From Candidatus Bathyarchaeota archaeon (lineage in GTDB: Archaea; Thermoproteota; Bathyarchaeia; Bathyarchaeales; Bathycorpusculaceae): DNA of 64,000 nucleotides. Below the pieces are notes generated by a model. That model ran no database searches. It saw nothing but the letters and a program-made list of their open reading frames with translations, and was not told the origin of the DNA. The stretch is from the NCBI GenBank assembly GCA_026014685.1, contig JAOZHW010000005.1:124001-188000 (forward strand), written 5' to 3'. The position numbers and the translations under genes are program-made. How positions within the stretch are numbered: position 1 is the stretch's first letter; every line of letters begins with the position of its first letter. Positions 9,103-56,214 of the stretch are shown piece by piece.

Positions 9103-9657
9103 TTAAGCTTTAAACCACTTAAACATCAAATACTTAATTTGCTTCGAAGCCAAATCGGGCACGGCGATTATGAAACGTTTACGAACCGTCGTGGCTAACC
9201 GCCCATTCTTAACTATTTCAGTGGCGGAGATTTCTGAACCCGCCTTCTTGACCGTCACCATATAAGGCGCATGCTCCACTCCGGGACCATACTTGTAGAC
9301 GGCAAAGTCGCAACCAAACTTTATGCCCGGTGTAACGATTAAACCGCTATCACGGAGGTCACGGTAAACGGCGTATTTCTCTTCAAATTCGTCGTAGAGT
9401 TGTTTGGCTTTGGTTCGCAGTTTTTTGAGACCAACTTTAGTTTGATTGGCGCTTTCGTAGATGTCGATTTTTTCTGTTTCCGCTAAGTAGAGCCCTTCCA
9501 TGAGATCCAAAACCAGAGGCACATCGAATTCGGGGATTTTTGGTTTAGGGATGCCGACGGGTTTGCCGTAGTAAGCGGTTTTGTAGAGTTGAGAGCCCTC
9601 GGCTGGGTTCCAGACTACCAGAAAGTTTTCGAGGAGTTCAACTTGGATTTTAGACAT
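9103..9657 (-). CDS. endA: tRNA-splicing endonuclease, catalytic-type subunit
   Basis: A protein of 184 residues. The C-terminal catalytic half has the EndA signature YRDLRDSGLIVTPGIKFGCD, the Tyr of FAVYKYG, the His of EHAPYMV and a Lys in VRKRFIIAVP, giving the full Tyr-His-Lys set for cleavage of bulge-helix-bulge introns. The N-terminal half (about residues 1-90) is the divergent structural domain. A second paralogue at 21512-22066 lacks the His, so the enzyme is probably the alpha2beta2 type seen in Crenarchaeota. This gene lies 11 bases downstream of the PhoU-like gene. Confidence 0.9.
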   Translation of the reverse strand: MSKIQVELLENFLVVWNPAEGSQLYKTAYYGKPVGIPKPKIPEFDVPLVLDLMEGLYLAETEKIDIYESANQTKVGLKKLRTKAKQLYDEFEEKYAVYRDLRDSGLIVTPGIKFGCDFAVYKYGPGVEHAPYMVTVKKAGSEISATEIVKNGRLATTVRKRFIIAVPDLASKQIKYLMFKWFKA

Positions 9658-21511: not shown

Positions 21512-22066
21512 CTACACGGGCAAGTGCATTTCGCCCACAGAGTAATGCACGATTTCGCCTCGGCGGTTCATAACAGCCAAAACCAACTCTTTCTTTTGAC
21601 TCTGACACTTCTGCAACGCAGCCACCAAGTCGCCGATAGGCAAAGGTTTGCCCTCTTGTGTCACCAAAATCAGATACGGCGCAGTATCCTTGCCGTATGC
21701 CCCGCGCTCATAGATGCGGAAGTCGATGCCTGCACCGAACCCCTCACGCACCACGTACCCGCGGCTTCGCAGGTCACGGTAAACAAGGTAGTTTACCCAA
21801 GCGTTCTCGTTTTGTGTTTCGTAGCAATGGAGGACAACTTGAAAAGTCATGGATGTGCCGTCTTTGTCTTGGACTTCAAGCATGCCCTTGTCTTGCAGAT
21901 AGAGAGCCTCAAAAAAAGCCAACGTGAAAACCTTGCCCTCAACAGTGCCGTACCCGCGGCTGGTAAGCTGGTCGATGCTGCTCTGCTCAGAAACCACTAC
22001 ACCCTTCTCTGCGATAGTTCCTGTGGTTCGGAACTCTACAGGTGCCGCTTTTTTTTGTTCACTCAT
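21512..22066 (-). CDS. tRNA-splicing endonuclease, structural-type subunit
   Basis: The ATG at 22066 (MSEQKKAAPVEF) gives 184 residues, the same length as the subunit at 9103; the longer frame would run into mtnA. The family signature YLVYRDLRSRGYVVREGFGAG and the Tyr of DFRIYERG are present, and a Lys pair sits in QKKELVLAV. The position of the catalytic His is Asp-Thr (GKDTAPYLILV). It is therefore probably the non-catalytic beta partner in a heterotetrameric EndA. It lies just downstream of mtnA on the same strand. Confidence 0.85.
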   Translation of the reverse strand: MSEQKKAAPVEFRTTGTIAEKGVVVSEQSSIDQLTSRGYGTVEGKVFTLAFFEALYLQDKGMLEVQDKDGTSMTFQVVLHCYETQNENAWVNYLVYRDLRSRGYVVREGFGAGIDFRIYERGAYGKDTAPYLILVTQEGKPLPIGDLVAALQKCQSQKKELVLAVMNRRGEIVHYSVGEMHLPV

Positions 22067-22091
22067 AATTATCCGCTTCACAGGGGGTATG

Positions 22092-23114
22092 TTATAGTTT
22101 TCCTTTCTTGAAGGCGGAAAAGTCTTTGCTGTAGTAGACTTTTGTTTCGCAGATAATAGCAGTAACATACTTCAGGGGCGTGGCGTCAAAAGCGGGGTTG
22201 TAGACGGCGACGCCGTCGGGAGCGGTTTGCTGGCAGCCGACATGGGTGACTTCGTCGGGTTTGCGTTCCTCTATGGTTACATCTGCGGCTTTGCATGATA
22301 AATCGAATGTGGATTTCGGTGCGGCGACGTAGAAGGGGATCTTGTGTTCATGCGCCAAAACCGCCACTCCATAAGTGCCGATTTTGTTGAAAACTGCGTC
22401 CTGCACGATGCGGTCAGCGCCCACGATGACTTTGTTTACCATGCCTTTGCTCATGACATGTGCAGCCATGTTGTCGGTAATTAGCGTGACGGGTATGCCG
22501 TCGCGTTTCAACTCGTAAGCCGTCAACCGTGCACCCTGCAGCAGAGGCCGCGTTTCATCAGCTATAACTTTGATTTTTTTACCCTGCTCCCATGCTGCCC
22601 GTATGACACCAAGTGCAGTGCCGTATTCAACCGTCGCAAGTTCACCTGCGTTGCAGTGAGTCAAAATCGTGTCCCCATCTTCAATGAGGACAGAACCGTT
22701 TTTGCCAATCGCACGGTTCTGGGCGGCATCTTCGTCAGCAATTCTCTGTGCTTCCTCGACAACCACAGCTTTGAGCTCATCTACACCACCCGAGACGGTC
22801 TTCGCCTTGCCCAACACGCGGTCAACGCCCCAAAACAAGTTAACTGCAGTAGGCCGCTGAGCCTTAATGAGTACCCCCGCTGCTTCGAGTTCTGCGAGTA
22901 ACTGCTGGGGGGTTTTTGCTTTGGATTTGTAGGCTGCAATAGCTATGCCAAACCCTGCCGCTGCCCCTAAAAGCGGTGCACCTCGAACGCGAAGCATCTT
23001 TATGGCTTCTGCCATTTGCTCGACGGTTTTGATTTCTAAGGTGACTTCTTGGAGGGGTAGTTTGGTTTGGTCAGGAGTTATTACTGTACCATTTTGCCAC
23101 TTGATCATCCGCAT
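22092..23114 (-). CDS. mtnA: Methylthioribose-1-phosphate isomerase
   Basis: A protein of 340 residues of the eIF2B/MtnA superfamily. Motifs include RVRGAPLLGAAAGF near residue 43, THCNAGELATVEYGTALG, VIADETRPLLQGARLTAYEL and VIVGADRIVQDAVFNKIGT, which carry the Cys and Asp used in the aldose-ketose isomerisation. MTR-1-P isomerase belongs to the methionine salvage pathway. The close relative ribose-1,5-bisphosphate isomerase of the archaeal AMP pathway is less likely given the MtnA-type CNAG and DETRP strings. AGAGGA lies before the ATG at 23114. Confidence 0.88.
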   Translation of the reverse strand: MRMIKWQNGTVITPDQTKLPLQEVTLEIKTVEQMAEAIKMLRVRGAPLLGAAAGFGIAIAAYKSKAKTPQQLLAELEAAGVLIKAQRPTAVNLFWGVDRVLGKAKTVSGGVDELKAVVVEEAQRIADEDAAQNRAIGKNGSVLIEDGDTILTHCNAGELATVEYGTALGVIRAAWEQGKKIKVIADETRPLLQGARLTAYELKRDGIPVTLITDNMAAHVMSKGMVNKVIVGADRIVQDAVFNKIGTYGVAVLAHEHKIPFYVAAPKSTFDLSCKAADVTIEERKPDEVTHVGCQQTAPDGVAVYNPAFDATPLKYVTAIICETKVYYSKDFSAFKKGKL

Positions 23115-31713: not shown

Positions 31714-32232
31714 GATACTTTTGCTTTGCCATAGACCCCCTCCTTATGTAGATTAGCAAGCAGAAGTTCAACCACCAGTTCACTAAACAAACAAGCAACA
31801 TCAAAAATCGCGTTGCCCCTCTGCTGCTACCTCCCCTTCCCTTATATAAACTCGGATTGGCACGGCAAGAAAGCTGCTGTTGGTCGGGAATTCCGCCATA
31901 CTCAGAATAGCGACGTCAGTGCAACCGATAAAGCAGCCAACTTGACCCCTGCGTTTCGTATAGAAGCACTTGTTGTAGGCATGGAGCAATCACAATTTTA
32001 TTGAGCTGCCAAAAGATGGCTAACGTAGAAATCAAGTCACATGAAACTTAGCTGGCGGTTTGACCATGGTACATAGACTTTTTTAGCCGCTGAATTGCCA
32101 CCTAAGCTTTTTAAAACGGCTTTTTGGGGTAAATCCCTGTTTTCCTTTATCTGCCCCTCTTTTTTAAAGAGAAAAGTTTAAGGGCAAATACCTCTTTTAC
32201 ATGCGAGTACTCTATCTTTGAGGGTTTGTGGT
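31714..32232. other. Intergenic region with an inverted TATA/G-rich element
   Basis: This 519-base gap contains the MoxR/VWA 3' end, copy D of the element on the minus strand at 31811-31860, and the rpoH promoter. Frames in it on both strands are short and mutually overlapping, and I do not support them as genes. Confidence 0.5.
31811..31860 (-). promoter_or_regulatory. TATA plus G-rich element, copy D
   Basis: On the minus strand it reads CCAATCCGAGT-TTATATAA followed by GGGAAGGGGAGGTAGC and, a little further on, GCAACG. It is near-identical to copy C at 44342-44391. It points toward the 3' end of the VWA gene, in antisense. Confidence 0.55.
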
Positions 32233-32784
32233 TTGAGCACTAATCTCTTAACAATCGAAGAACGCAAAGCTGAAGTCCTAATTAAACTAAGAAAGTATAA
32301 GCTTGTAGAAAAACAGAAATACGAAGGCGCATACGCCTACATAATCGATATTCCACAGGAGAAGGAACGCGCCATAGTCTGGTGTATCCTTGGTGAAGCT
32401 ACTGTGGGCATTGCGGCGATGAACACCCTCTACAAGATTATGAAAGAAAAAGAAATCGACCGCGCAATCGTTGTTACCGAAGGACGTTATACGCACGCCG
32501 TTAAATTGGGCGCAAAAAAGAAAAACGTCGAGTTGCTTCCTAAATCGTTCCCCGTATTTGACATTTTTGAGCACGCCTTGGTTCCTTATCATGAGATTTT
32601 AAGTGAGAAGGAAAAGAAAGAACTCTTAGCACACTTCAAAGTTCAGCCTTACCAGATGCCTCAGATCCGCTCAGGTGACCCCGCAGTGAAAGCCATCGGC
32701 GCACAACCAGGCGACGTACTAAAAATCACTCGTAAAAGTCAGACTGCAGGCGAACACGTAACTTATCGCTACGTAGTCGAATAA
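32233..32784 (+). CDS. rpoH: RNA polymerase subunit H (Rpo5) with RPB5-like N-terminal domain
   Basis: The TTG at 32233 has GAGGGT about 8 bases upstream and gives 183 residues (TTG 32218 is an alternative). Residues about 108-183 are the universal archaeal RpoH domain: [52 protein letters not shown]. Residues 1-105 form an extra domain with [20 protein letters not shown] and [16 protein letters not shown]. This matches the order and spacing of the eukaryotic RPB5 jaw domain as I recall it. Typical archaeal RpoH is only about 75-85 residues. It stands apart from any rpoB/rpoA operon. Function: core transcription, with jaw contact to downstream DNA expected. Confidence 0.9.
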
Positions 32785-34212: not shown

Positions 34213-34938
34213 ATGTGTAAACCCCAAACCCACCTAAACCTTAGGGAGCTAGCAGCATTGCCTATTGAAGCAGTTATATTCGATTTAGACGGAACGTTAG
34301 CCGCCTTCAACTTGGATTACAAAGCCTTACGTGGAGAAGTCAGAGAATACCTCATACATGTTGGTGTTCCTGCATCAGTGCTGAAACCAAACGAAAGTAT
34401 CTTTGATATGATGCAGAAAACTGAAATTTACTTTAAAAACAGCAGCAAAAACGGCGAAGCGTTCACCGCTATCCGCGCCCAGTGCTTAGTCATAGCTGAA
34501 AAGTACGAGATGGAAGCAGCCACCACCACGACGCTACTGACAGGCGCAGTTGAAACGCTAAAAGAACTCCAGAAGATGAAGCTAAAAATCGGTTTATGCA
34601 CAACCAGCAGCGAAAAAGCAGTCAACTACATCCTAAACCGTTTCAAAATCCAAGAATATTTCCAAGTCGTTGTTCCCCGCGACAAAGTCAAGAATGTTAA
34701 ACCTGACCCTGAACAGTTCATGTTGGCACTCAAAACTTTGGGAGTTCGCCCAAACGCGGCGGTGATTGTTGGTGACAGCAAAGTGGACATGCAGAGCGCC
34801 AAAGAACTCAAAACCATCGCAGTCGGGTTACCCGCAGGCGTCTCCACCACTGAACAGCTAATGGAAAGCGGAGCACACTACATAATTACTACGTTGATTG
34901 ATTTGCCTGTTTTGGTAAAAAAGTTGGATAAGGCTTAG
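34213..34938 (+). CDS. HAD-superfamily phosphatase, phosphoglycolate phosphatase-like
   Basis: A protein of 241 residues. Motif I is VIFDLDGTLAAF, motif II GLCTTSSEKAVNYIL, motif III a Lys in VKPDPEQ, motif IV VGDSKVDMQSAKE. The helical cap between motif I and II is of the subclass IA type. The substrate is unknown. The stop codon overlaps the stop of the giant helicase on the other strand (TTAG). A TATA-like box (AAGTATATG) precedes the start by about 15 bases. Confidence 0.85.
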   Translation: MCKPQTHLNLRELAALPIEAVIFDLDGTLAAFNLDYKALRGEVREYLIHVGVPASVLKPNESIFDMMQKTEIYFKNSSKNGEAFTAIRAQCLVIAEKYEMEAATTTTLLTGAVETLKELQKMKLKIGLCTTSSEKAVNYILNRFKIQEYFQVVVPRDKVKNVKPDPEQFMLALKTLGVRPNAAVIVGDSKVDMQSAKELKTIAVGLPAGVSTTEQLMESGAHYIITTLIDLPVLVKKLDKA

Positions 34939-37900
34939 GCGACGACTATTGTGCCGTCGTCTTTTTGAATCAGTTTTCTTTCCCTGATTAGCCTTTTTAG
35001 GACTTCACTGAAGGCTTCTTTTGAGCCTTCACCCGCGTGGTTTACGCCGAATATTTTGGCTGTTTCCGCAATCAAAGATTCGCCACTTATGCCCAACGCG
35101 TATTGAGCGACGAGTTTCATCGCGGCTTCAACTTCTTCTGGGGCGATGTATTTGGGTTTGCGTTTGGATTCGGGGATGCCCTTCACTGGGATGCGGATGG
35201 GGGTTTCTTTGAGTCCAGCGGGCCAGATGAAGCTGCCTTTGATGGCGACTTTTTGTTCGCGGATGAGGTTGTTTAGGGCTTCTTTGACGGCGTGGCTAAT
35301 TTTTGGGGTAACTGTTTTGATGTTCCATGTGGCAGCTAAGCGTTCAGCGGCGTAGTCAAAGTGGATGGGGCCTTCGTTTGCCACGAGTTCGCCGAGAAGT
35401 TTGGTTTGGTTTTCTCGGTTTTCTGGGAAGTGGAACTCGTTTTTGGTCTTAGAGTCTACGGTTGTTCGGCCGTTGGGGACTTTGATGTAGGGGTTGTATG
35501 TGGCTTTGAGCGGGTAGATCTTGTAGGGCACGGCGAGTTTTTCTATACCGCTGAAATGGTTCTTTTGTACATCAGTAGCTGGCGCGGTGATAGGTGTGTG
35601 GCTGTCTTGCTCGATTTGCTGCTTGTGGGCTTGTTCGAGGGCTTCTTTTAGGCGGCGAATTTCGCTGTCCCGCCTCGCCACCCAAGCGGGAGCCCAGATG
35701 CGGTGGATACGCCAGCCCAGTTGCCGCAGAACCTGTTCTCGGAGGCGGTCGCGGTCACGTGCGCTGCTGCTGGACTTGTAGGTTGCGCCGTCACATTCCA
35801 CACCGAGCAGGAAACAGCCTTTGTTAACGGGGTCTACGACGCCTATGTCGATTTTGTAGACGCTGCAGCCTACTTCAGGGATTACTTCGTAGCCGAGTTT
35901 CTTGATTTCATTAGCTACATCTTCATCAAGCGGCGACTCGAATACGCCTTGTTGGCATCTGCCGTCTTTAACAGAGTCAGTACCGTGTTCGGCGTAGTCA
36001 AGGTAGCTTCGTAGGGTTTGTACGCCGAGTGCTTGGGTGTCAGCGTCGATGTCGGAGGCTTTTATCGAGGAGATTAAAACGACTTTTTCTCGAGCACGGG
36101 TAACTGCTACGTTGAGTCGGCGTTCTCCTCCAGGTTTGTTGAGGGGCCCAAAGTTCATGGTGATCTGACGGTTTTGGTCGTAACCGTAGCCGACACTGAA
36201 GAATATGACGTCACGTTCGTCTCCCTGTACGTTTTCAAGGTTCTTCACGAAAAAGCCGCCCAAACGGTCTTCTTTGAAGAACTGCTCAAACTCTGGGTGC
36301 TCCAAGAGGCGACGTGCGATGGCTTCTTGCACGGTTTCCATCTGCGCGATGCTGAAGGTAACGACGCCAAGGGTTTTTTGGGGGTAGGTTTTGAAGTGTT
36401 CAAAGACTAGGTCGGCGACTTTTTCGGCTTCGATGGGGTTGTCGCGTTTGCCTCCGCGGTCGTAGATTCCGTCTGGGACGTAGATGAGTTTGACGCCTAA
36501 GCTGTCGGTTTCGGCTTTGGCTGCGGGGAAAGTAATCATTGCGCCGTCGTAGAATTGCATGTTGGAGAAAGCGATTAAGCCCTCATGCTTGCTTCGATAG
36601 TGCCACTTTAGCGTCTTCACTGGTAACCCGATGCCTAAACACTCGTCAAGGATGCTGTCGAAGACTTCTACGTCTTCGTCGGTTAATTCATCCCAGTCTT
36701 TGTCGTCAAGCAGGTTCTTCTGGAAAAACGAAGTCGGCGGCAACTGCTTATTGTCACCTGCAACCACAATGGTCTTGCCGCGGTAAATTGCTCCAATTGC
36801 GTCTTCAGGCACCAACTGAGATGCCTCGTCGAAGAGAACCAAGTCGAATTTGGCTTCAGGCGGCAGGAATTGGCTTACTGAGATGGGACTCATGAGCAGG
36901 CAGGGTTTGAGTTTGACGAGTAGGTTGGGGATTTTTTGGAAGAGGGTGCGGATGGGCATGAGGCGTCGTTTTTTGGCGGCTTCTTTGGAGAGGATGGCGG
37001 CTTCGGTGTCGGCTGCTTGGATGAGTATGTCTTGGGGTTTTCGGCTGTTGGCGGCGTCGATGACCATGGCGGAGGTTAAGCGGATGAGGTCTTGGTCAAG
37101 TTTGCGGAAATCTGCGATTAGTTGCTCGTGGTTTTCTCGGCGGAAGCGACCCAGCGTGGGGTCTTCGTTGTAGAGGTTGTTTATCCACTCTTGGTAGGCG
37201 CTTTTGCGGAACAGCGGCACCAAGTCCGCGGCAGGCAACTTCGCCTCCACTAGGCGGTTGAAGAAGCCGTCTAAGCCGAGCAGAGTGAAACGGTTCTTTG
37301 TGTCCTTGAAGTCAATCCAGACTTGCAAGTCGTCCACCCTTTCACGCAACGCCTGAATGCGTTCTATGATGACTTTGATGTCTAAATCAACCAGTTTCTG
37401 GTCTTGGTATCGCAATTCAGTTTCAAAACGCTTCTCAAAAGCCGCCAAAACCTTCAGGGCAGCGTCGCGCTTACAGATTAAATCTGTGTTAGATACTGCG
37501 GCGGATGGGCCTTTGGAGGCGATTTCGGCGTACAGTTCTGGAACGGGTAAGTCGCCGAATGCCGCTTGCACCTTCTGCACCCATTCAAGCACTGAGACTA
37601 TGTCTTGCCAGTCGGTCTCTAATTCTTGGAAGCGGGCGCCAAATTTTTCTTTAAGTTGAGCTTTTTCGCCTGCGATTTGGGCTTCTTTTTTGCGGATTTC
37701 CTCAGCGTTTTTGAGGTCCGCTATGAGTTGCTGGTAGGTTTGGGGTTCGGTTTTAGCTACGGTAAGAGTGTTATTGGTTAAGGTGTTTAGTTTGGTGAGT
37801 TGTCTGTCGGCTTCTGATGCCCATTCCTCCAATGCGGGCAGGGGGGTTTGGGTGATTGCTGCGTCAGATTTCGCTAGTTTCTGCGGCAGCAGCAACTCGA

Positions 37901-40601
37901 CATCTTTGGCTTGGGTTTCCCACTTTTCCACTGAAAACTTGAGTTCCTGACCCAAGTTCTTAATCATCGGCGAAGGCGTAGCAGGATTCGTGAGCAGTTT
38001 AAGGAGGGTTTCAGGAATTTGGGTTGCCCAACCGAACGCTTTAACTTCCTGAGCAAGAGCTATGGCTTTTTCTGCGCCGTTGAAGTCCGTTCTGCTCTTG
38101 TGATAGTAATGCCCAAGCAGGGTGCGGACGGTTTCAGCTGAGTCCTCGATTTTTTTGGCCAGTTTGTTGACCTTGCGGGCATCGATTAAGTCTTGCAGTA
38201 TGGTTTTGGGGACTTTGCCGTCGTGAGCTAGTTTAGCGATGCGTTTCTGGTCGCTACGGTAGCCGCTGTTGAAAAATTTCATGCCGCTTTGGTAGGGACC
38301 ACTGTAGTTGGCGATGAGTGTATCGAGGTCAAGTTCGAAGAAGCCGTCGCTGTAGGTTTCTTCTAAGCGGCTCTTGAGCAGGTTGTGTTCTTGGTAGAGG
38401 TCTTTGGCTTTATTCACTGTTTCCTGCACTTGCTCAAGGTATTTAGCGTCAAACCACTGTGCCTCAGGCTTATCCTCCGCGAAACACAAAAGCGCCATGC
38501 GAGAGAGCTGCTTTAGCTGGGTGATGGTGAAGTCGCCGTTGTCCAGCCCCAGCGCCTGAGCCAGAGCTTTTGCGGTTTCACGCCACTTCTGAGCCGCCGC
38601 CTGTGTGCCTCTGATGAATGAGAGTAACCTTTCCCGCTTAGCAAGAAATTCGCCCTCCAAGATTGATGTTCCTACTGCTTTGGCTGCGTCAGTTACGGCT
38701 TGCTTCAACTCCACCGACCGCGTCAAAGGCAAATCATAGAGCGCGGGAGTGTAGCGTTCTTGGAGGTTTTCGCGGGTGAATTTTATCCAGTTAGCGGTTT
38801 CAAGGTAAGCCTTCGCCTCCGCCAACAGCTTATCTAAGGCGGTGTTGGTCATCCAAGCCTGTTCGGGTTTGGGGCTGTCAAACAAAAAGTTGCTCACATC
38901 CAGCAGCCACTGAATACGCTGGAAGGTTTCTGGCGGGAAAACGCCGAGTTTAGCCGAGAAAGCCTCAGCTTCCAACTCCAACTCACGGAAGGTTTCATTA
39001 ATCGCTTCCAAGGTGGTGAGGAGTTCGCTTCGGATTTCAAGGTTGTACTTGTCTGCGCGGTAACCCACCCATGGAAAATCAGGTTCCTCTACAACCTGCC
39101 AAACCTTGCTAAGCTGACTCACTAAATCTTCTAGTTCACGCATCTTTTGTGGGGTAAGCGTGGAAAGTTCGGTTAAACCGACAGGGACAAAGGGCACCCG
39201 CTCCAAGCTGGATATTATGCTGAGAACTTCGTAGACGCTTCTCTGCATGTAAGGCCGTTTATCATGCAACGCCACAACGTAACCATTGAGGGCGTCACGG
39301 TACTCGGTTAATCGGTCAAATTCATGCTGGGAGGGTAGTTTGCGGGGGACGAGGTTTTCGTCGAGACTGCGCTTGAGTTCCGCCACAACCTGCTGCTTAT
39401 TGGCTTTGCTGCTATGCAGTTCAAGGCAGAAATGCGCCAACCCCACCTCACTAAGTCGCTTGTAGACGACTTCGAGCGCTGCCATCTTGTCACTGACGAA
39501 GAGTACGCTTTTGCCGTTGGCGATGCACTCCGCAATCATGTTCGCGATGGTTTGGCTCTTGCCCGTGCCAGGCGGCCCCTTCATAACAAAACTCTGACCG
39601 CGCAGGGCGTATTCGATGCTTAGGCGTTGGCTGCTGTCGGCGTCGAGGACTTGGTAGGTTTTGGCAGGCAACTCAATTTTGTCCACGTCCTTCTCATCTG
39701 GCAAACCAGTTAGGATGAGGTTGTCTTCTTTTATGCCTGCAATGGCGCGGATGATGGGGTGCTGGGTTACTATGGCAGCGTTGGATTCAAGGTCTTTGTA
39801 TATGACGAGTTTCTGGAACGAAAACAACCCCAAATGTACTGCATTTTCGGTTTTCCAGCCCATCTCGGAGACTGCCTGCTCAACTTGGGCATAGAAGTCG
39901 GCGAGGCTGGTGCCTTCCCACTCCTCAGGCAACAAGGGCAAATCAAGGCGATAATCGTTTTTTAGTTTAGCCTGCAACGCGGGATTCAAAACCGCTTCAT
40001 CCTCAACAGGCGGCACCCCGATGCTGTAGGGGGCGCGGATAGTTTCTTTGCCCAACTCCAAAGGCACTAAAATCAGCGGAGACTGAACCTTCTCCTTGGT
40101 CTCAGCATCCACCCAATTCAGCAACCCAAACGCAGCGTAGAGGATGCGGACACCGCGTTCACGATAATCCAAAAGTGAGCGACGCTCAAGGGCTTTGAGA
40201 GCGCTATCCAATTCTTGACCCGAAAGATCACCACAGACGAGTTGAGTGCCTGTTGGGCGTTTGGGTTCTTCTGTGGTGGCGGCTTTTACTGGGGCTTTTG
40301 CAGTGGTTGCCGCGGGGGTTTCTTTAGTTTTTTTTCCTCTGCCTTTTTTTGGCTTTTCAGCCTCTGCCTTCGCAGGCGCAGCGGCATCGGGTGGCGTGTA
40401 GAATTCTATGCGTACCTTCTTAACCACCAACTGGTCAAAAATTTTCTGTGCCTCAGGCTGCGTGATGGTGAGGTTTCCGCGTTTAGCTTTGCGGAAGTAT
40501 AGCAAGTTATTCTTTTTTGACAAATCGATTAATCTGGATTTCCAATCTTCGACCCTTTTCATGGGAGTCGACTGCGGAACAAATTCAACTGATTCAGCCA
40601 T
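34935..40601 (-). CDS. Giant DUF4011-SF1 helicase-Vsr nuclease-DUF3320 protein
   Basis: From ATG 40601 it is 1888 residues. The DUF4011 N-terminus starts RVEDWKSRLIDLSKKNNLLY and is interrupted near residue 75-120 by an Ala/Lys/Pro-rich linker. SF1 helicase motifs follow: Walker A GPPGTGKSQTIANMI near residue 340, Walker B LVLFDEASQLVP near 1255, VVAGDNKQLPP, ENVQGDERDVI and NVAVTRAREKV. Between Walker A and B lies a long coiled-coil insertion. A Vsr/MTES_1575-type nuclease domain comes near residue 1600 (GVECDGATYKSS, RIHRIWAPAW), then DUF3320 to the end. Proteins of this build are known or predicted antiphage defence factors; no partner genes accompany it here. Confidence 0.88.
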   Translation of the reverse strand: MAESVEFVPQSTPMKRVEDWKSRLIDLSKKNNLLYFRKAKRGNLTITQPEAQKIFDQLVVKKVRIEFYTPPDAAAPAKAEAEKPKKGRGKKTKETPAATTAKAPVKAATTEEPKRPTGTQLVCGDLSGQELDSALKALERRSLLDYRERGVRILYAAFGLLNWVDAETKEKVQSPLILVPLELGKETIRAPYSIGVPPVEDEAVLNPALQAKLKNDYRLDLPLLPEEWEGTSLADFYAQVEQAVSEMGWKTENAVHLGLFSFQKLVIYKDLESNAAIVTQHPIIRAIAGIKEDNLILTGLPDEKDVDKIELPAKTYQVLDADSSQRLSIEYALRGQSFVMKGPPGTGKSQTIANMIAECIANGKSVLFVSDKMAALEVVYKRLSEVGLAHFCLELHSSKANKQQVVAELKRSLDENLVPRKLPSQHEFDRLTEYRDALNGYVVALHDKRPYMQRSVYEVLSIISSLERVPFVPVGLTELSTLTPQKMRELEDLVSQLSKVWQVVEEPDFPWVGYRADKYNLEIRSELLTTLEAINETFRELELEAEAFSAKLGVFPPETFQRIQWLLDVSNFLFDSPKPEQAWMTNTALDKLLAEAKAYLETANWIKFTRENLQERYTPALYDLPLTRSVELKQAVTDAAKAVGTSILEGEFLAKRERLLSFIRGTQAAAQKWRETAKALAQALGLDNGDFTITQLKQLSRMALLCFAEDKPEAQWFDAKYLEQVQETVNKAKDLYQEHNLLKSRLEETYSDGFFELDLDTLIANYSGPYQSGMKFFNSGYRSDQKRIAKLAHDGKVPKTILQDLIDARKVNKLAKKIEDSAETVRTLLGHYYHKSRTDFNGAEKAIALAQEVKAFGWATQIPETLLKLLTNPATPSPMIKNLGQELKFSVEKWETQAKDVELLLPQKLAKSDAAITQTPLPALEEWASEADRQLTKLNTLTNNTLTVAKTEPQTYQQLIADLKNAEEIRKKEAQIAGEKAQLKEKFGARFQELETDWQDIVSVLEWVQKVQAAFGDLPVPELYAEIASKGPSAAVSNTDLICKRDAALKVLAAFEKRFETELRYQDQKLVDLDIKVIIERIQALRERVDDLQVWIDFKDTKNRFTLLGLDGFFNRLVEAKLPAADLVPLFRKSAYQEWINNLYNEDPTLGRFRRENHEQLIADFRKLDQDLIRLTSAMVIDAANSRKPQDILIQAADTEAAILSKEAAKKRRLMPIRTLFQKIPNLLVKLKPCLLMSPISVSQFLPPEAKFDLVLFDEASQLVPEDAIGAIYRGKTIVVAGDNKQLPPTSFFQKNLLDDKDWDELTDEDVEVFDSILDECLGIGLPVKTLKWHYRSKHEGLIAFSNMQFYDGAMITFPAAKAETDSLGVKLIYVPDGIYDRGGKRDNPIEAEKVADLVFEHFKTYPQKTLGVVTFSIAQMETVQEAIARRLLEHPEFEQFFKEDRLGGFFVKNLENVQGDERDVIFFSVGYGYDQNRQITMNFGPLNKPGGERRLNVAVTRAREKVVLISSIKASDIDADTQALGVQTLRSYLDYAEHGTDSVKDGRCQQGVFESPLDEDVANEIKKLGYEVIPEVGCSVYKIDIGVVDPVNKGCFLLGVECDGATYKSSSSARDRDRLREQVLRQLGWRIHRIWAPAWVARRDSEIRRLKEALEQAHKQQIEQDSHTPITAPATDVQKNHFSGIEKLAVPYKIYPLKATYNPYIKVPNGRTTVDSKTKNEFHFPENRENQTKLLGELVANEGPIHFDYAAERLAATWNIKTVTPKISHAVKEALNNLIREQKVAIKGSFIWPAGLKETPIRIPVKGIPESKRKPKYIAPEEVEAAMKLVAQYALGISGESLIAETAKIFGVNHAGEGSKEAFSEVLKRLIRERKLIQKDDGTIVVA

Positions 40602-40718
40602 TCTACAGCACATCCGCTAGGTTCAGCTTAGCTTATAGGCTGTATCATTCTTTAATATTTGCGGTATTTTACAAACCCATCAACCAATCACATAGCCACC
40701 TTTGAGGATTGAATTATG

Positions 40719-49179: not shown

Positions 49180-49611
49180 TCAGTCCACCTTCGCCAACTG
49201 TAACTGTAACACATAAACCGCAAACGTACTGGAAGGGCTAACGCAAACGTATTCTACAGAGGCGATTTTGTTGCTTACGGCGCCGCCGTTACAGATTGGA
49301 TAAGTGTTCAATGCTTCGCCGTCAGCGTTGTAGACTGTTAAGTTAAACCACACCATAAGGGGCAATGCTGCTTCGATGCAGGCACTAAGGTTTGTCCAGT
49401 CGCGGGAGTCAATCAATTTCGATAACTGTCCATCGCTGTTTAAGCTTAAAAGCGCATTCTCAGCCATAGACTCCAAGTTATCGTTACCTGCAGAGACATT
49501 CTGAAAGTTGCTTTGGGCAGGGATAAGGGTCAAGCAGGAAAGCAAAAGCATAGACGCTAAAAATGCTTCAATAACGCGTGCTTGTCCTCTTCGGTCCTTA
49601 AGCAGTCTCAA
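49180..49611 (-). CDS. Small pilin-like protein
   Basis: A protein of 143 residues starting at TTG 49611, whose codon overlaps the preceding gene's stop (TTGA). A basic leader (RLLKDRRGQAR) leads into VIEAFLASMLLLSCLTLIP, a class-III-like hydrophobic helix; the remainder has three Cys residues beyond the helix and mixed structure. Probably a minor pilin or pseudopilin. Confidence 0.7.
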   Translation of the reverse strand: MRLLKDRRGQARVIEAFLASMLLLSCLTLIPAQSNFQNVSAGNDNLESMAENALLSLNSDGQLSKLIDSRDWTNLSACIEAALPLMVWFNLTVYNADGEALNTYPICNGGAVSNKIASVEYVCVSPSSTFAVYVLQLQLAKVD

Positions 49612-50645
49612 GGGTTCAGGTCTCCTAAACTTACGTCAAGCTTGTACAGTACACCGTTAACGGTCACCATATAGGAGAATACGTTACGTTCAGAATTAGC
49701 GAAACTTGACCCCACGGATAGGGGAATTTGTGGGTAACTTGTCCATTCTTGGAAGTATTGCCCTTCCACTTCGCCGCATACAATCATTACTATGGGGCTG
49801 TGGTCGATGAGTTGTGGGATGGCACATTCGCCGCCTTGCGAAGTTGTGATGTACTGGTGCAGGTAACTAAACGTGTACATTTTCTGAATCAAGGCACCCC
49901 CAGATTGGTTGAAACTTAAAGTGTAATTCAAGGGGCTAAGCGATAGAGCGGTGCTGGCAGGCGTTGTTTCTTGTTGGCCGCTGGCAAAATTGTAAACTGC
50001 ATACGAGGTTACACGTTCATCAAAAGGCGCCCTAGCAAAAACGACCACTAAAGCATCATCCGCGGAAATAGTGGGGTAATGGAAGACTACTTCTGTGGTG
50101 CCTGACGTGGTGATTGTGGCGGTGGCGTTGTATTGATAGTTTTGGGCCACGAGGTAGCATTGCAGGTTGGCTTTGGAGGGTTTAGACTCGATTGCGGTGG
50201 AAACCGCCAATGTTGTGTAGGTGTCGTCTCCTGCGGTGTAGGTGTTTGTTTGCTCTAAACTAATAGTTAGGGTTTGTGAGAGCGATATCCCCATGGCTAT
50301 ATTGGTTAATTTTGAAGCAACAGCTAAATCTACATGTGACAATGAGTGGGAGTTCAGAGTAGATAGACGACATATTTTATCGATGTCCAATTCGTAGATT
50401 CTGGTGGCGGTATTCAATGCCAAACCGAAGTCAACGGGTACAACATTGGTTTTACCCCAATCCACTGGACTACCCGCGTATGTTACCATCCTGTCAGCTA
50501 AAGCTCTAAGATAACTGTCTTTATTCGCATCCTGCGAACTTTCAATACGCGCATGCAGAGTTGTACCCAGAAAAGCCGTCGCTATCAAAGCTACAGCAAC
50601 GATGATCGTGCATGCAAAGAAAGTGTCGAAGGTGGTTGAAGGCAG
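49608..50645 (-). CDS. Pilin-like protein with predicted CTG start
   Basis: The conventional frame would begin with TTG at 50588, inside the hydrophobic helix. Upstream in the same frame the only options after the preceding stops are a CTG at 50645 (9 bases after a perfect GGAGGT) and an ATC. With CTG the protein is 345 residues and gains FDTFFACTIIVAVALIATAF, a complete membrane helix. The remainder is beta-rich with many Thr/Ser. I place the start at CTG by this reasoning, with moderate certainty. It is translationally coupled to the platform protein. Confidence 0.6.
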   Translation of the reverse strand: MPSTTFDTFFACTIIVAVALIATAFLGTTLHARIESSQDANKDSYLRALADRMVTYAGSPVDWGKTNVVPVDFGLALNTATRIYELDIDKICRLSTLNSHSLSHVDLAVASKLTNIAMGISLSQTLTISLEQTNTYTAGDDTYTTLAVSTAIESKPSKANLQCYLVAQNYQYNATATITTSGTTEVVFHYPTISADDALVVVFARAPFDERVTSYAVYNFASGQQETTPASTALSLSPLNYTLSFNQSGGALIQKMYTFSYLHQYITTSQGGECAIPQLIDHSPIVMIVCGEVEGQYFQEWTSYPQIPLSVGSSFANSERNVFSYMVTVNGVLYKLDVSLGDLNP

Positions 50646-50648
50646 CTA

Positions 50649-52166
50649 TCATAAACCTCCAGGTTTAACTATACTGAATGTATCCGCCAGCAACACCTGA
50701 GAAAGCACCAGCGAAAGGTAAGCAGTTGCAGCTAGCATCGCAGCAATTTTGAAGCCTGCACCAAAGTTGCCTTCGCTGATTTTTCCGATGAAGAACCCGG
50801 AGATCCAACATTGAATTATAATGCCTACAGAGAACACTTTGAGTTGGTCTTGCATGGCGATCATGGCTACTGAGGAAAGATCGGAGCTTACGATGCCAGT
50901 CATCATCGTCGTGGTTAAGGCTACGATAGTAGTAGTCACTGCAATTAATGCGCTCCACATGAATGCCAAAAGAATGTAGGGCTTCAATAGCGCTCTACGG
51001 TTAACCTGTAATTCGCGCTCTTTTTCACTGTACTCTGAGAGGATCTCAAGGGATTGGATAGAGTTCCCACCGATTTCAAGGGTTTCTACCATCATGGCAA
51101 AGTTTACGATGACAAACCAGCTGCGAATTTCTTTCTTCAAATTCTCAAAAGTCTTCCGCAAAGGAATACCCCATTCAATCTGGCTTCGTATCAAAACGAG
51201 GAATTTTGAAAAGCTTCCGTAGTCTTTGCGTTTGGTGGCTTGAATGATACTTTTTTCTGGGGACAGACCTGTTTTTTGGGATTCAGTGATGTCGCGTATG
51301 AAGCTTGGAATTGATTCTTCAGCGTTGTAGTTGATTTTCGAAATACGATAATATTGGATGGCAATTGGCAGTGATGTGGCGACGAGGGCGATTGTCGTTA
51401 TTTCAGCGAGGCCAAGAGGTTTGATGGCGTCCTGAAGCGACTTTACAGCGCCAAATGCACCGATCACTACGAACGCGGGAACAGTGAAGATTATTGCTTT
51501 TTTATAAAGGTCCTTTAGGTCAGGAAAAGCGCTTCGTTGCATGTTATGCGCCATCAAAATAAAGATACCTGACATCACAGGCATAATTACAAACGCTATA
51601 ATGTAGGACATTGAAGGAGAAATTGAAATGGAAGTGCTTGCTAAAAGGTCCATAACACTCGACGAGGAAAATACCACGAAGAGGATGTAGGTGCACAAAA
51701 CCACTATTAACATAACTGAGTATGCTTCAACCAAAGCAGCAATCCGCTCGATTGAGCGGTTTAAGTTAATGTAACGCAACTCAAAGATTGATTTAAGCTG
51801 GCTTTTCATGTAGTCAACAAGTTTGCCTCCGCTGCGAACTGACGAGACAAAACCGCCTAAAAAGTTACGATAAAGCTTAGACTGGGTTGCCTCAGCACGT
51901 TGATACATAACAGTCAAGGGGTCTTTACCCAACACCTCAACTTGCCGCACAACCTCGTCAGCCTCCTTCTTGAACACAGGCAAAAAGGTTAGTTTACGCA
52001 TCTTCTTCCAGCTATCATACGGAGATATCCCGCTTGCAGCCATAAGCGTAAAAATCATGACTGCAAAAGGCAGCTCAGCCTCAGTTTTTTCACGTTCTTC
52101 ACTAGTAGCTTTGTTGAGTTCACCGAATAATTTGCCTAAAAAACCGCTACGTGGTTTTTTCTGCAT
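50649..52166 (-). CDS. ArlJ/TadC-type pilus membrane platform protein
   Basis: A protein of 505 residues with the T2SSF/ArlJ layout: two copies of a helical cytoplasmic module (GFVSSVRSGGKLVDYMKSQL and ITESQKTGLSPEKSIIQAT) and about seven to nine hydrophobic segments. The N-terminus lacks any signal peptide. The platform pairs with the ATPase encoded 4 bases upstream. It would extrude and anchor pilin subunits. Confidence 0.88.
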   Translation of the reverse strand: MQKKPRSGFLGKLFGELNKATSEEREKTEAELPFAVMIFTLMAASGISPYDSWKKMRKLTFLPVFKKEADEVVRQVEVLGKDPLTVMYQRAEATQSKLYRNFLGGFVSSVRSGGKLVDYMKSQLKSIFELRYINLNRSIERIAALVEAYSVMLIVVLCTYILFVVFSSSSVMDLLASTSISISPSMSYIIAFVIMPVMSGIFILMAHNMQRSAFPDLKDLYKKAIIFTVPAFVVIGAFGAVKSLQDAIKPLGLAEITTIALVATSLPIAIQYYRISKINYNAEESIPSFIRDITESQKTGLSPEKSIIQATKRKDYGSFSKFLVLIRSQIEWGIPLRKTFENLKKEIRSWFVIVNFAMMVETLEIGGNSIQSLEILSEYSEKERELQVNRRALLKPYILLAFMWSALIAVTTTIVALTTTMMTGIVSSDLSSVAMIAMQDQLKVFSVGIIIQCWISGFFIGKISEGNFGAGFKIAAMLAATAYLSLVLSQVLLADTFSIVKPGGL

Positions 52167-52170
52167 CTTT

Positions 52171-53751
52171 CTACGGTACCTCAGCGACCTCTTGGTTTAG
52201 CGCTTCAAGGTTCAGTGAACTGTTTAGAGCTTTGTGAACGCTTCGGAAGTCACGCAGGTTGTGCTCAACCATGCTTAACAAGATTTTCTTTCGGCGCTCA
52301 AATTCCTGCATAACGACGCTGACGGGGACATCCACTGCTGTAGCGATTTTTTTGAACAGATAACTGTTAGACAAGTTGCTTTGGAAGGTGTCTGAGGAGA
52401 GTTGCCAAGTAAAGACGTCGTGGGATTGACCTGTGTTATCTATCTCGGCTATTTTGGTGAATTTACGAGTGGAACCTTTTCGATCATGCGGGTTAAAGCT
52501 GCTGTTTCTAACCTGTTTAACGACAATAACACAGTTCATCAATGAAAGAATCGTCGGAGGAATATTCATCGGAGGCTGAGTTAAACGTTTGACTACTGTT
52601 TCGACGTCGTCGGCGTGCATGGTACATAAACCGCCGTGACCTGTGGCAAGCGCTTGGAATAGCACGTACGCTTCTTCACCTCTGATTTCGCCTACAAGAA
52701 TCATGGTTGGTCTGTGCCGCACAGCTGATTTAATGAGATCGTAGAGTGTGACTTCTCCGTCGCTGTCTCCGCCGAATCCTGTTCGGGCTATGGTTGAGAC
52801 CCAGTTTTCCTGCGGCAGGTTGATTTCTTGAACTTCTTCTACGGAAATCATCTTGTAGTCGGGACGAACCAAACATGCAATAGCGTTTAAGGCGGTTGTC
52901 TTACCTGCACCTGTAGGACCAACGACCATAACTGACATCTTGTTTTCCATAAGCATCCAAAGATAGGCCCCGATAGATTCGTCGATGGTTTCGTTCATTA
53001 TCAAGTCAACGATGGTTAAGGGATCCTCTCTGAATTTTCTGATCGTGAAGCTGGTGCCTGCAGGTGTGGTTTCTTTTCCAAAAGAGACAGCCAGACGGTG
53101 CTTGCCTGGCAGGGTCAAGTCGACGATGGGGTGGGCGATGCTGACGTGTTTGCCTTGGCGGTGAACTATGCGTGTTATGAAGTCGTCGAGTTCTTCTTCG
53201 TTAGTGAAAGTTATGTTAGTTCGGGCGTTGTTATATTTGCGATGATAGATGTAGACGGGTTTGTTTATGCCTAAACAGCTAATGTCTTCGATGTAGGGGT
53301 CGTTTATGAGGCCGTCGATTCTGCCGTACCCGATAAGGTCTTTTTCGAGGTAGTAGATGATTTTTCTTTGCCCCACCTTGTTTGTTCCAGCCAGGGCTTC
53401 TTTGTGGTCTTGAAGAATCGCAGGTAATTGGCGACGGAAAGAATCAACAAGAGACTCATCTACACTTGGAGCTTTGAGTTCGTATTCAAGTATGCTTTTT
53501 AGGCGTTTGTAGGCTTCACGTTCTTCACGCGACATCGGCAACTCATCCACGACATAGAAGTAGCTGCCTTCGGCGTCGTCTTGGAACACCCAAGCATAGG
53601 AGAATGGAGGGTTAAGCGGGTAGCTTTCTACTTGTGTGTACCCTTCAGGTACTTGGTAGCCTTGGATGCCAAGGTACGCTATGAGTTCTTCATCTGGAGC
53701 TTGCTGTACGACTTGAACTTCTTGTTGTTTTTTCTTTCCAATTTTAGGCAT
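52171..53751 (-). CDS. GspE/ArlI/TadA-type pilus assembly ATPase
   Basis: From ATG 53751 it is 526 residues; GTG 53760 would add three. The N-terminal 130 residues are family-specific. The ATPase core shows VVGPTGAGKTTALN (Walker A), an Asp box (MISVEEVQEINLPQENW), MILVGEIRGEEAYVLFQAL (Walker B) and the His box HGGLCTMHADDVETV. It powers pilin assembly at the membrane platform. The tight overlap with the pilin-like gene upstream and the platform downstream supports one operon. Confidence 0.92.
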   Translation of the reverse strand: MPKIGKKKQQEVQVVQQAPDEELIAYLGIQGYQVPEGYTQVESYPLNPPFSYAWVFQDDAEGSYFYVVDELPMSREEREAYKRLKSILEYELKAPSVDESLVDSFRRQLPAILQDHKEALAGTNKVGQRKIIYYLEKDLIGYGRIDGLINDPYIEDISCLGINKPVYIYHRKYNNARTNITFTNEEELDDFITRIVHRQGKHVSIAHPIVDLTLPGKHRLAVSFGKETTPAGTSFTIRKFREDPLTIVDLIMNETIDESIGAYLWMLMENKMSVMVVGPTGAGKTTALNAIACLVRPDYKMISVEEVQEINLPQENWVSTIARTGFGGDSDGEVTLYDLIKSAVRHRPTMILVGEIRGEEAYVLFQALATGHGGLCTMHADDVETVVKRLTQPPMNIPPTILSLMNCVIVVKQVRNSSFNPHDRKGSTRKFTKIAEIDNTGQSHDVFTWQLSSDTFQSNLSNSYLFKKIATAVDVPVSVVMQEFERRKKILLSMVEHNLRDFRSVHKALNSSLNLEALNQEVAEVP

Positions 53752-53756
53752 AAATC

Positions 53757-54197
53757 TCACTCACTTGTTAATGTTAAAGTTGCAATCTGGTTTTCAACGT
53801 TGCATACCAAAACAGCGCGGCCGGTACTGCTGATAAAGCCACCCGATGCTGTGACCGCAGCAGGCAATTTCTCTTGCATACAGCTCGAGAGGGGGCTTGT
53901 TCCGAAACCCATCTCAACCCAAGCACTTGAGGAGTCGTTTGCGATTCGTATCCAGAAGGGTTGATTGCCCACCTGCGAGGGCATATCTAAGTACTGCTTA
54001 GTGTTCTGGCCGTTGCTGGTGCTTGAAATCAGAGCTAAACTCTGAGATGCTACATACTTTCCTATGTTTCTTAGTTGCTGCACTTCTGCGTCGGCTTTTA
54101 TGTTTGCAGCTGCTACACTACAACTGCAAACCACAATTACGCCCACAAGTAAAGCAGCAAACAGCGAATACACGTAACCTGGAACTATACTGGGCAT
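53757..54197 (-). CDS. Small pilin-like membrane protein
   Basis: A protein of 146 residues. The N-terminal helix (YSLFAALLVGVIVVCSCSV) comes within eight residues of the start, as in pilin-like proteins lacking a long leader. A coiled segment (DAEVQQLRNIGKYVASQSLA) and a beta-rich domain with a late Cys pair follow. An AGGTGGG site lies before the ATG at 54197. It overlaps the ATPase GTG reading by 4 bases. Confidence 0.68.
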   Translation of the reverse strand: MPSIVPGYVYSLFAALLVGVIVVCSCSVAAANIKADAEVQQLRNIGKYVASQSLALISSTSNGQNTKQYLDMPSQVGNQPFWIRIANDSSSAWVEMGFGTSPLSSCMQEKLPAAVTASGGFISSTGRAVLVCNVENQIATLTLTSE

Positions 54198-55034
54198 CTA
54201 TCTAACCCACCTCTCAAGTGACACGCTGCAAACAACCATCTCTAAGTTGATCTGGGCGCCCTGAGCAGCTGTGGTAACTGGTATAACCAAGCTTGTAACT
54301 GAGCCATCCAAGTCTGCGGTAACAGTTAATGAATCGACTGCTGAGGAAACTTGGAAGGTTTTAGTCGAGAACTCGGTTGCCTTACATGTAGCTTGGAGCG
54401 GCAGACCACCGTAGAGCGCTATGGCTTGGGATTGATTGAGGTTAACGATGTAGACGCGGATGTTGTTGATCGCTCTGCCGTCATCTACGCCTGTTACAGC
54501 GTAAGTTATACTTGGGCGGTACCGCAACTGGATTTCAGCGTATTCAACACCATTTGAGATGCAAAGTTGGCTTATTGAAGCACCACTTTGGTTGGTGATT
54601 GAGTTGCTGTCGCCTTTGAGGAATAGCCCTGTCTGGGAGGAGCTGGAATAGGGAAGTTGGTAGGTAACTTTGCCTATGGCGGAGTCAAATATGGTTTGGG
54701 AAATCTCAGCGTTGTTTATTTGCAGTCTGAGAGTGTTGTTTTGTGGTTCGATGAGTGTTTTGCCGCCTGAATCTGAAAGTTCATATGTCGCTGAGGAGCC
54801 GGGCTGCCAGAGAGTCGAAACTATGGCGGAATCTAGTGAGAGCATGTTTTGTTTGGCGGTGGAAACTTTGAGGTTTGTTCCTTGTGCACCGACACGTTCC
54901 ACTGAATAGTAGTAGGTGAAGGCAACGATCCCGAGCGTAGACACAAAGAGGATCAGGAATGTAACTGGCAGCGCAACGGCTAAGCGAGAGCGGAGAAATC
55001 TTTGCACATGATGATTGTGTCTATTAATTTTCAA
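54198..55034 (-). CDS. Pilin-like membrane protein
   Basis: A protein of 278 residues from TTG 55034 (GAGGA upstream); GTG 55007 is an alternative. The basic leader (VQRFLRSRLAV) runs into PVTFLILFVSTLGIVAFTY, then a large beta-rich domain with many Ser/Asn. It opens the second transcription block of the locus after a 513-base gap from the major pilins. Confidence 0.68.
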   Translation of the reverse strand: MKINRHNHHVQRFLRSRLAVALPVTFLILFVSTLGIVAFTYYYSVERVGAQGTNLKVSTAKQNMLSLDSAIVSTLWQPGSSATYELSDSGGKTLIEPQNNTLRLQINNAEISQTIFDSAIGKVTYQLPYSSSSQTGLFLKGDSNSITNQSGASISQLCISNGVEYAEIQLRYRPSITYAVTGVDDGRAINNIRVYIVNLNQSQAIALYGGLPLQATCKATEFSTKTFQVSSAVDSLTVTADLDGSVTSLVIPVTTAAQGAQINLEMVVCSVSLERWVR

Positions 55035-55303
55035 TCGGAATCCTCGGTACGCGTGTCTTTAATGTAGATGGATAGCGAAAATGATTATGACCGTTTGTGC
55101 GTAAAACAAAGTACACTTGCTAAACAGGACGCGGCCTTCGTGTTGGAGATTGATTGTATGATTCTAAAGGAGTAGTGTAGCGCGTTAAACATCCACTCCC
55201 TCAACATTTTGGTGTTTATTTGGTCCTTATGGCAGAAAATGTTTTCAAATTCACATGCCGCTGTTTCAACGTAGCGGTTGCGTTGTTATCGTGGAAAAAA
55301 TCC

Positions 55304-55326
55304 CAGTCCCTACCGAAAAGGGACTG
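55304..55326. other. Hairpin in the pilus intergenic gap
   Basis: CAGTCCCT and AGGGACTG form a perfect 8-bp stem with a seven-base loop. It is not followed by a T run on either strand close by, so it is not a clear terminator. Confidence 0.4.
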
Positions 55327-55479
55327 AATCTGGAGGAAAACACAAAATGCAACTACAACCCTTTGCAATCGTGCAGTGTACCAGGTTGCCGCATTCACAC
55401 AAAAAGTCGAAAAAACAAAATTAATTCTATAGTAAGCAAAAAATTATAAAATATTGTGCATTAGACGGATTTCATGATT

Positions 55480-55505
55480 TTAAAAAAGAAAAGATAAAAA
55501 AGAAA
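55480..55505 (-). terminator. T-tract terminator after the second major pilin
   Basis: On the minus strand the region about 45-65 bases past the stop codon is a series of T runs (TTTCTTTTTTATCTTTTC), the archaeal type of termination site. Confidence 0.5.
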
Positions 55506-55547
55506 TATTGTGGGGGGTTGGGGTTATGGTTTGTTAGTGTTTTTTGT

Positions 55548-56099
55548 TTAGCTTGCTTCTACGTTGGTTTCTTTGTAGTACATTGCTTGCGATGTGAAGA
55601 TGGTCTGTGCAACTGTTAGGCCGATGTCGTTGACGGTGATGCTGTCAGGGTTGTTGATATAGATTATCATGGTTTTACCTGATTCAAGTGTCAAGTCAGT
55701 AGATGCTGCAACGAACTCGTATGCTGTACTGCCGATAGTCATTGAGCCGCCCAAGTTTTCTTGGAAGGTTAAGTCTGCAGAGACAGAGTCAGTTGTGACG
55801 TTGTAGTATACGTTGCTCCATGCGCATTCTTGACCTCTGACGGTTAGTTTGTCAATGACTACGTCTCTACCGCCAGTGTTTATGATCATGATTGCTGCTT
55901 GACCAACATAGGTTGTACCGTTGGCTGCGTACCATACGTGCTGCTTTGTAAGGTGCAAGCTTTCTTCTTGAACGCGGGTGCTTGTGACGTTGATGGCAAA
56001 GTAGGTGACGACTCCTGCGAGTAGCACTGAAACGACGAGGATAATCAGCGTTGTTACGACTGTACTTAATGCATATCTATTTTTTAGTATGTTTCTCAT
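55548..56099 (-). CDS. Major type IV pilin, paralogue 2
   Basis: A protein of 183 residues. The class III signal is KNRYALSTVVTTLIILVVSV, with probable cleavage in the short basic leader, then a long hydrophobic helix. The soluble domain has a conserved TGGRDVVIDKLTVRGQECAW segment and NDIGLTV near the end. About 115 bases separate it from paralogue 1. The DUF1628 archaeal pilin/archaellin-like family is the best match. Confidence 0.82.
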   Translation of the reverse strand: MRNILKNRYALSTVVTTLIILVVSVLLAGVVTYFAINVTSTRVQEESLHLTKQHVWYAANGTTYVGQAAIMIINTGGRDVVIDKLTVRGQECAWSNVYYNVTTDSVSADLTFQENLGGSMTIGSTAYEFVAASTDLTLESGKTMIIYINNPDSITVNDIGLTVAQTIFTSQAMYYKETNVEAS

Positions 56100-56214
56100 T
56101 TTTTATGTCACTGAAAAATCAAATACACGATTTTTGGATATGTGATTGTGTGCGTAAAAAAAACTACACATATTTTTATAGAAAAGAGAAAGACAAAGAG
56201 AAAGGGGTTTATTT

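Follow-up and report, generated by a model that had tools for sequence, protein, structure and literature searches.

Results

The long rpoH gene and its surroundings

The stretch of DNA analysed here, referred to throughout as the window, comprises 64,000 nucleotides from a Candidatus Bathyarchaeota archaeon and contains a gene for an RNA polymerase subunit H (RpoH, or Rpo5). The standard archaeal Rpo5/RpoH (Sulfolobus, Pyrococcus, Methanocaldococcus type) is a jawless protein of approximately 80 residues, whereas the window protein shares with it the C-terminal 75 residues and carries in addition an N domain of 108 residues. The gene, its parts and its upstream elements are as follows, all on the forward strand:

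32171..32184, + strand: BRE/TATA-like element GAAAAGTTTAAGGG, putative promoter, mostly conserved in congeners
32220..32224, + strand: Shine-Dalgarno-like GAGGG, putative ribosome-binding element 8 nt 5' of the TTG, mostly conserved in congeners
32233..32784, + strand: long rpoH gene (RPB5-like RNA polymerase subunit H), TTG start, stop at 32782-32784, 183 aa
32254..32556, + strand: N-terminal jaw domain, residues 8-108, predicted inactivated Mrr/PD-(D/E)XK fold and homologue of the RPB5 jaw
32380..32388, + strand: W50-C51-I52, at the position of the catalytic (Q/E)-x-K of Mrr nucleases
32491..32502, + strand: T87-H-A-V90, by alignment the equivalent of TPSA, the motif with which RPB5 contacts DNA
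32527..32574, + strand: 16-residue junction V99-H114, running from the final strand of the jaw into the EH of the assembly domain
32557..32781, + strand: RpoH assembly domain, residues 109-183 (PF01191)

Conservation of the two upstream elements was judged by eye from the upstream regions of 13 same-genus genomes. An initial annotation, made from the sequence without database searches, had described the C-terminal 75 residues as ordinary archaeal RpoH; these residues match PF01191 at 5e-30 and the protein attains 106 bits against the NCBIfam model for subunit H (PRK09570), for which the equivalog cut-off is 83. The further residues that it had placed ahead of this part belong to the same open reading frame and form the N domain (residues 8-108).

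Elsewhere in the window, two distinct tRNA-splicing endonuclease subunits are encoded at 9103-9657 (-) and 21512-22168 (-), each with PF01974 and PF02778, which suggests a heteromeric enzyme. An ORF of 1892 aa at 34935-40613 (-) contains the helicase-like motifs GPPGTGKSQT and DEASQ and appears by eye to be of the DNA2/NAM7 kind. A type IV pilus/archaellum-like cluster occupies 49180-56835 (-), with a FlaI/TadA-like ATPase at 52171-53760 and two similar pilin-like ORFs in tandem (55548-56099 and 56215-56835).

Selection on the N domain

Among 14 congeners, the first, second and third codon positions of the N domain differ in 9.6, 3.1 and 47.7% of codons, the corresponding values for the C domain being 10.2, 6.4 and 47.2%. 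The N domain is thus at least as constrained as the RpoH part and changes no faster among these same-genus genomes. Strong purifying selection of this kind answers the question, raised with the initial annotation, of whether the extension is translated at all.

The N domain as a predicted inactive Mrr-type fold

In Pfam the N domain of the window protein is matched by NA-iREase1 (PF22722, 4e-7) and Mrr_cat (PF04471, 3e-6; 27.6 bits against a cut-off of 21). Both families are also matched by the N domains of all 21 diverse relatives examined, at values down to 1.2e-11. Since these matches extend from the window protein to its relatives, the N domain can be assigned by sequence to the restriction-endonuclease (PD-(D/E)XK) fold. 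The matches to the Mrr-type nucleases and NA-iREase1 cover the core of the fold, but the window N domain differs from these proteins in that it has neither the catalytic Asp nor the catalytic Lys, is accompanied by no DNA-binding or helicase partner and is fused to a polymerase subunit. At the position of the catalytic Lys, a lysine is present in none of 27 archaeal jaws and in none of four eukaryotic jaws; in the catalytic Asp column, Asp is not among the common residues of the archaeal jaws, while 24 of 24 Mrr domains have it. Archaeal and eukaryotic jaws alike carry a tryptophan or another aromatic residue in place of the catalytic Q/E. That the RPB5 jaw is a restriction-endonuclease fold without catalytic residues was already known (PMC551604).

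Several further proteins with related domains were observed. A family of approximately 180-245 aa from the same class (L130, L131, L132, L139 and L140) possesses a jaw-like domain without an RpoH domain, and its C-terminal part contains cysteines. This sister family retains the catalytic Asp, whereas Q/E and K are replaced by R and I, respectively; its jaw-like domain reaches a profile score of 100.7 to the RpoH jaws, which places it nearer to them than the Mrr domains are. Three small Mrr-like proteins of approximately 113-160 aa (L143, L144 and L169) have Trp at the catalytic Q/E position, as do many RpoH jaws and yeast RPB5. One long RpoH (L010; genome G060, - strand, 1033-1728) harbours a zinc-ribbon-like insert of approximately 30 residues (CEHCGH...CPKC) inside the jaw, just before its last strand, which its congener L015 lacks.

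Homology to the jaw of RPB5

The central claim of the initial annotation, an archaeal RpoH that carries an RPB5-like jaw, finds support in profile searches in both directions, in the inactivated catalytic positions and in a collinear junction of equal length. A full-length phmmer search of the PDB found eukaryotic RPB5 at values down to 1e-20, with residues 54-182 aligned to 73-205 and the alignment thus running into the jaw. The N domain alone, searched against the 177,635 PDB sequences, gave a single match, again to RPB5 and weak (0.38). With an N-domain profile, the best seven PDB matches were all RPB5 (4e-4 to 0.023), the next, unrelated chain standing at 0.41. Conversely, when 137 whole genomes from the class were searched with a profile of four eukaryotic jaws, the best 17 matches were N domains of long RpoH proteins, the top one at 1.9e-6. 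Comparison of the eukaryotic with the archaeal jaw profile yielded P values of 5e-7 to 1.4e-6 and a score of 42.8, against at most 16.6 for 100 column-shuffled controls and 11.2 for a reversed control, and the motif resemblance therefore exceeds chance. The eukaryotic jaw profile scores 41.6 to the Mrr nucleases, about equal to its score to the archaeal RpoH jaw.

In contrast to these reciprocal profile matches, the Pfam model of the RPB5 jaw itself (RNA_pol_Rpb5_N, PF03871) found no match in the window protein. This model spans only yeast residues 6-99 and, ending where it does, misses much of the shared stretch.

The window protein resembles RPB5/RPABC1 (yeast ABC27) in the order of jaw and assembly domain and, as predicted from its sequence, in having a catalytically dead restriction-endonuclease jaw (PMC551604). 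Within the jaw, RGY after helix 1, the VG(I/V) helix, the A-I/L-V-V strand and the T-x-x-A loop follow one another in the same order and at nearly the same spacing. From VGI to the threonine of T-x-x-A there are 30 residues, without gaps, in the window protein and in mammalian RPB5 alike. The motifs of the initial annotation and their order are thus real, while the distance from VGI to the EH(A/E)LVP motif, which it had given as identical, is 55 residues in the window protein and 59 in mammalian RPB5. From the last jaw strand (VE/IE/LE) to the EH of the assembly domain, the distance is 16 residues, free of gaps, in RPB5 of yeast and mammal as well as in the window protein. The window jaw is shorter than that of RPB5 (approximately 105 against approximately 140 residues), the archaeal jaw having no insert after the RGY strand; this eukaryotic insert excepted, the homology to the jaw of RPB5 (residues 1-142) runs end to end. 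Of the 27 archaeal jaws, 23 have T and 22 have A at the counterpart of TPSA. The proline of this motif (Pro118) is rare, L099 alone having it among the archaeal jaws listed, and Pro86 is not conserved in the archaeal jaws.

Structure prediction added less. A single-sequence AlphaFold model of the N domain (pLDDT 70) has the order helix-strand-strand-strand-helix-strand that is expected of the fold, and Foldseek found no significant fold match for this N-domain-only model in the PDB. The full-length single-sequence model (pLDDT 58) retrieved RPB5 chains at approximately 1e-6 with low TM-scores, a match that the RpoH domain may drive. On the profile evidence, the N domain is supported as a homologue of the jaw of eukaryotic RPB5 with an inactivated Mrr/PD-(D/E)XK fold.

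Copy number and position of the gene

PF01191 matches only one protein in the window genome (2.3 Mb, 99% complete), the long RpoH, and nothing RpoH-like lies upstream of rpoB; the second, short rpoH next to rpoB for which the initial annotation had proposed to look does not exist in this genome. The rpoB gene is on contig C8 and the long rpoH on contig C5. The long form is likewise the sole RpoH in the single-contig genomes G048, G284, G288 and G405, and in G048 it is situated 0.8 Mb away from rpoB. A short rpoH was found directly upstream of rpoB in ten of ten short-form genomes checked in the same class, whereas the long rpoH never adjoined rpoB in the long-form genomes checked. Neighbour analysis of the long rpoH genes revealed no operon common to all of them. 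The short rpoH next to rpoB most likely gave way to the long gene; the probable course is that a relocated rpoH copy gained the jaw domain and that the copy in the rpoB operon was lost.

Some genomes contain more than one long rpoH. Three paralogues are present in G455 (L133, L134 and L135) and two each in G040 (L014 and L066) and G043 (L006 and L065), one of the G040 copies being of a divergent type also found in L167 and L168; such paralogues suggest alternative polymerase subunits. On contig C11 of G061, a second long rpoH (L141) is in pieces, in different frames and with a stop, alongside the intact copy L142, and is apparently a decaying pseudogene.

Distribution of the long form

The class concerned is most likely Bathyarchaeia and the phylum probably Thermoproteota in GTDB terms. 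In the order to which the window genome belongs (families f1-f9), every intact RpoH found was long. The long form also occurs in families f14, f17, f18 and f72 of the same class, while families f10, f11, f12, f13, f15, f16, f68, f69 and f70 of this class have the short one. In the phylum sample outside this class, no RpoH with a jaw was found, and the other families showed either a short RpoH or no match to the N domain. Within the sampled phylum the form is thus lineage-specific; the two origins considered in the initial annotation, an ancient RPB5 and a lineage-specific fusion, are weighed in the Discussion. Weak N-domain matches elsewhere in the phylum were considered as RpoH jaws and rejected, those fetched being Mrr-type proteins, several with a catalytic QCK motif and some membrane-anchored. 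With the window protein as query, a viral contig collection yielded no relative; a search with yeast actin, aimed at Asgard genomes, retrieved actin-like genes solely from bacterial assemblies.

In an RpoB phylogeny that included 25 outgroups, a tree constrained to group the long forms in one clade surpassed the result of the free quick search by 12.8 log units (p-AU 0.78). A single clade comprising all long forms is not rejected.

Discussion

Concerning the origin of this architecture, we slightly favour a parallel fusion inside the archaeal class over a single ancient fusion. In the latter case, full-length RPB5 would predate eukaryotes, the class would have kept the two-domain subunit or donated it to the eukaryotic stem, and the short RpoH of other archaea would be a reduced form that has lost the jaw; we regard this as possible, if on the doubtful side. 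The jaw tree speaks for it, as eukaryotic jaws, archaeal RpoH jaws and the sister family group together with the Mrr nucleases outside (98/96) and the eukaryotic jaws fall beside the divergent type of L066, L167 and L168 (81/98), and so do the equal junction in yeast, mammal and window protein and the aromatic residue that both sets of jaws have in place of the catalytic Q/E. In AU tests on 113 columns, however, neither the placement of the eukaryotic jaws outside the archaeal ones (p 0.34) nor that with Mrr (p 0.33) was rejected, and the eukaryotic jaw profile is about as near to Mrr as to the archaeal jaw. In the tree of the C domain, long-form RpoH groups with the short RpoHs of its own class and not with eukaryotes, and forcing the eukaryotic and long-form C domains together is 34.7 log units worse (p-AU 0.056). 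A single ancient fusion would furthermore require very many independent losses in the phylum sample, which does not include Asgard archaea, and it is the short form that holds the position in the rpoB operon. Parsimony therefore leans to two fusions, while the jaw tree and the gap-free junction lean to one.

All archaeal and eukaryotic polymerases have the C-terminal domain of this subunit docked on the large subunit. Because the long RpoH is the only candidate in its genome, it is probably a core polymerase subunit, and one equipped with an RPB5-type N-terminal lower jaw. In Pol II, residues Thr117-Pro118-Ser119 of TPSA bring the jaw into contact with the downstream duplex, 15-20 nt in front of the fork; the P118T substitution in RPB5 causes no growth defect, and archaeal RpoH lies near downstream DNA and is important for open-complex formation (PMC6690254). 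Given these contacts of the RPB5 jaw and the retention of the T and A of the loop in the long form, we propose a DNA-gripping lower jaw. By analogy with RPB5, the N domain would be located at the downstream end of the DNA cleft, where it may touch duplex DNA approximately 15-20 nt beyond the active site via the T-x-x-A loop, and would steady the downstream DNA during open-complex formation and elongation; it might perhaps also offer a docking surface for factors, as the RPB5 jaw does. The position of the domain in the polymerase, its DNA contact and its function are in this respect all read across from the eukaryotic enzyme. Rpo13 of the Sulfolobales offers a partial parallel as an archaeal addition at a locus partly filled by the RPB5 jaw (PMC2675907), but it is a separate small helix-turn-helix subunit and not a fused REase-fold domain.

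A convergent fusion with a different job, in which the inactive Mrr-like domain would act as a general nucleic-acid or defence-type sensor and not as a lower jaw, appears improbable. It would accord with the best Pfam matches being NA-iREase1/Mrr_cat and not RPB5_N, and with the existence in the same class of the sister family, in which the same domain is present without an RpoH part. Nevertheless, both the point of attachment to the only RpoH, a core subunit, and the length of the junction are those seen in RPB5, and the domain is at least as well conserved as the RpoH part.

These archaea are very unlikely to have acquired a complete RPB5 gene from a eukaryote or a large DNA virus: the eukaryote-like architecture at a displaced locus would fit such an event, but the C domain is archaeal in sequence, unlike that of RPB5, and its grouping with the short RpoHs of its own class argues against whole-gene transfer, as do the missing eukaryote-specific insert after the RGY strand and the failure to find a relative of the window protein on viral contigs. 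That the extension might be untranslated, or the product of an assembly or frame artefact, has the TTG start codon to recommend it and can be set aside almost entirely, since numerous independent assemblies, single-contig genomes among them, show the region open, colinear and under strong purifying selection.

The RPB5 jaw has been described as a eukaryotic feature that is missing from archaeal RpoH (PMC3906176, PMC6690254, PMC2675907), and the parts seen of a 2026 survey of archaeal polymerase small subunits make no mention of a jaw on Rpo5 (PMC13257274). We found no report of an archaeal RpoH jaw in the open literature; as this search covered neither subscription papers nor preprints, priority is not proven. 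With an RpoH that bears a jaw in an entire archaeal order and four other families, the list of differences considered specific to the eukaryotic polymerase becomes shorter by one. The Mrr-type nucleases emerge as relatives of the jaw by sequence and not by fold alone, and the long RpoH is a small system for studying the contribution of the jaw to an archaeal enzyme. Its history is either a case in which one fusion evolved twice in parallel or a direct source of evidence for how the polymerase of the ancestor of eukaryotes was built.
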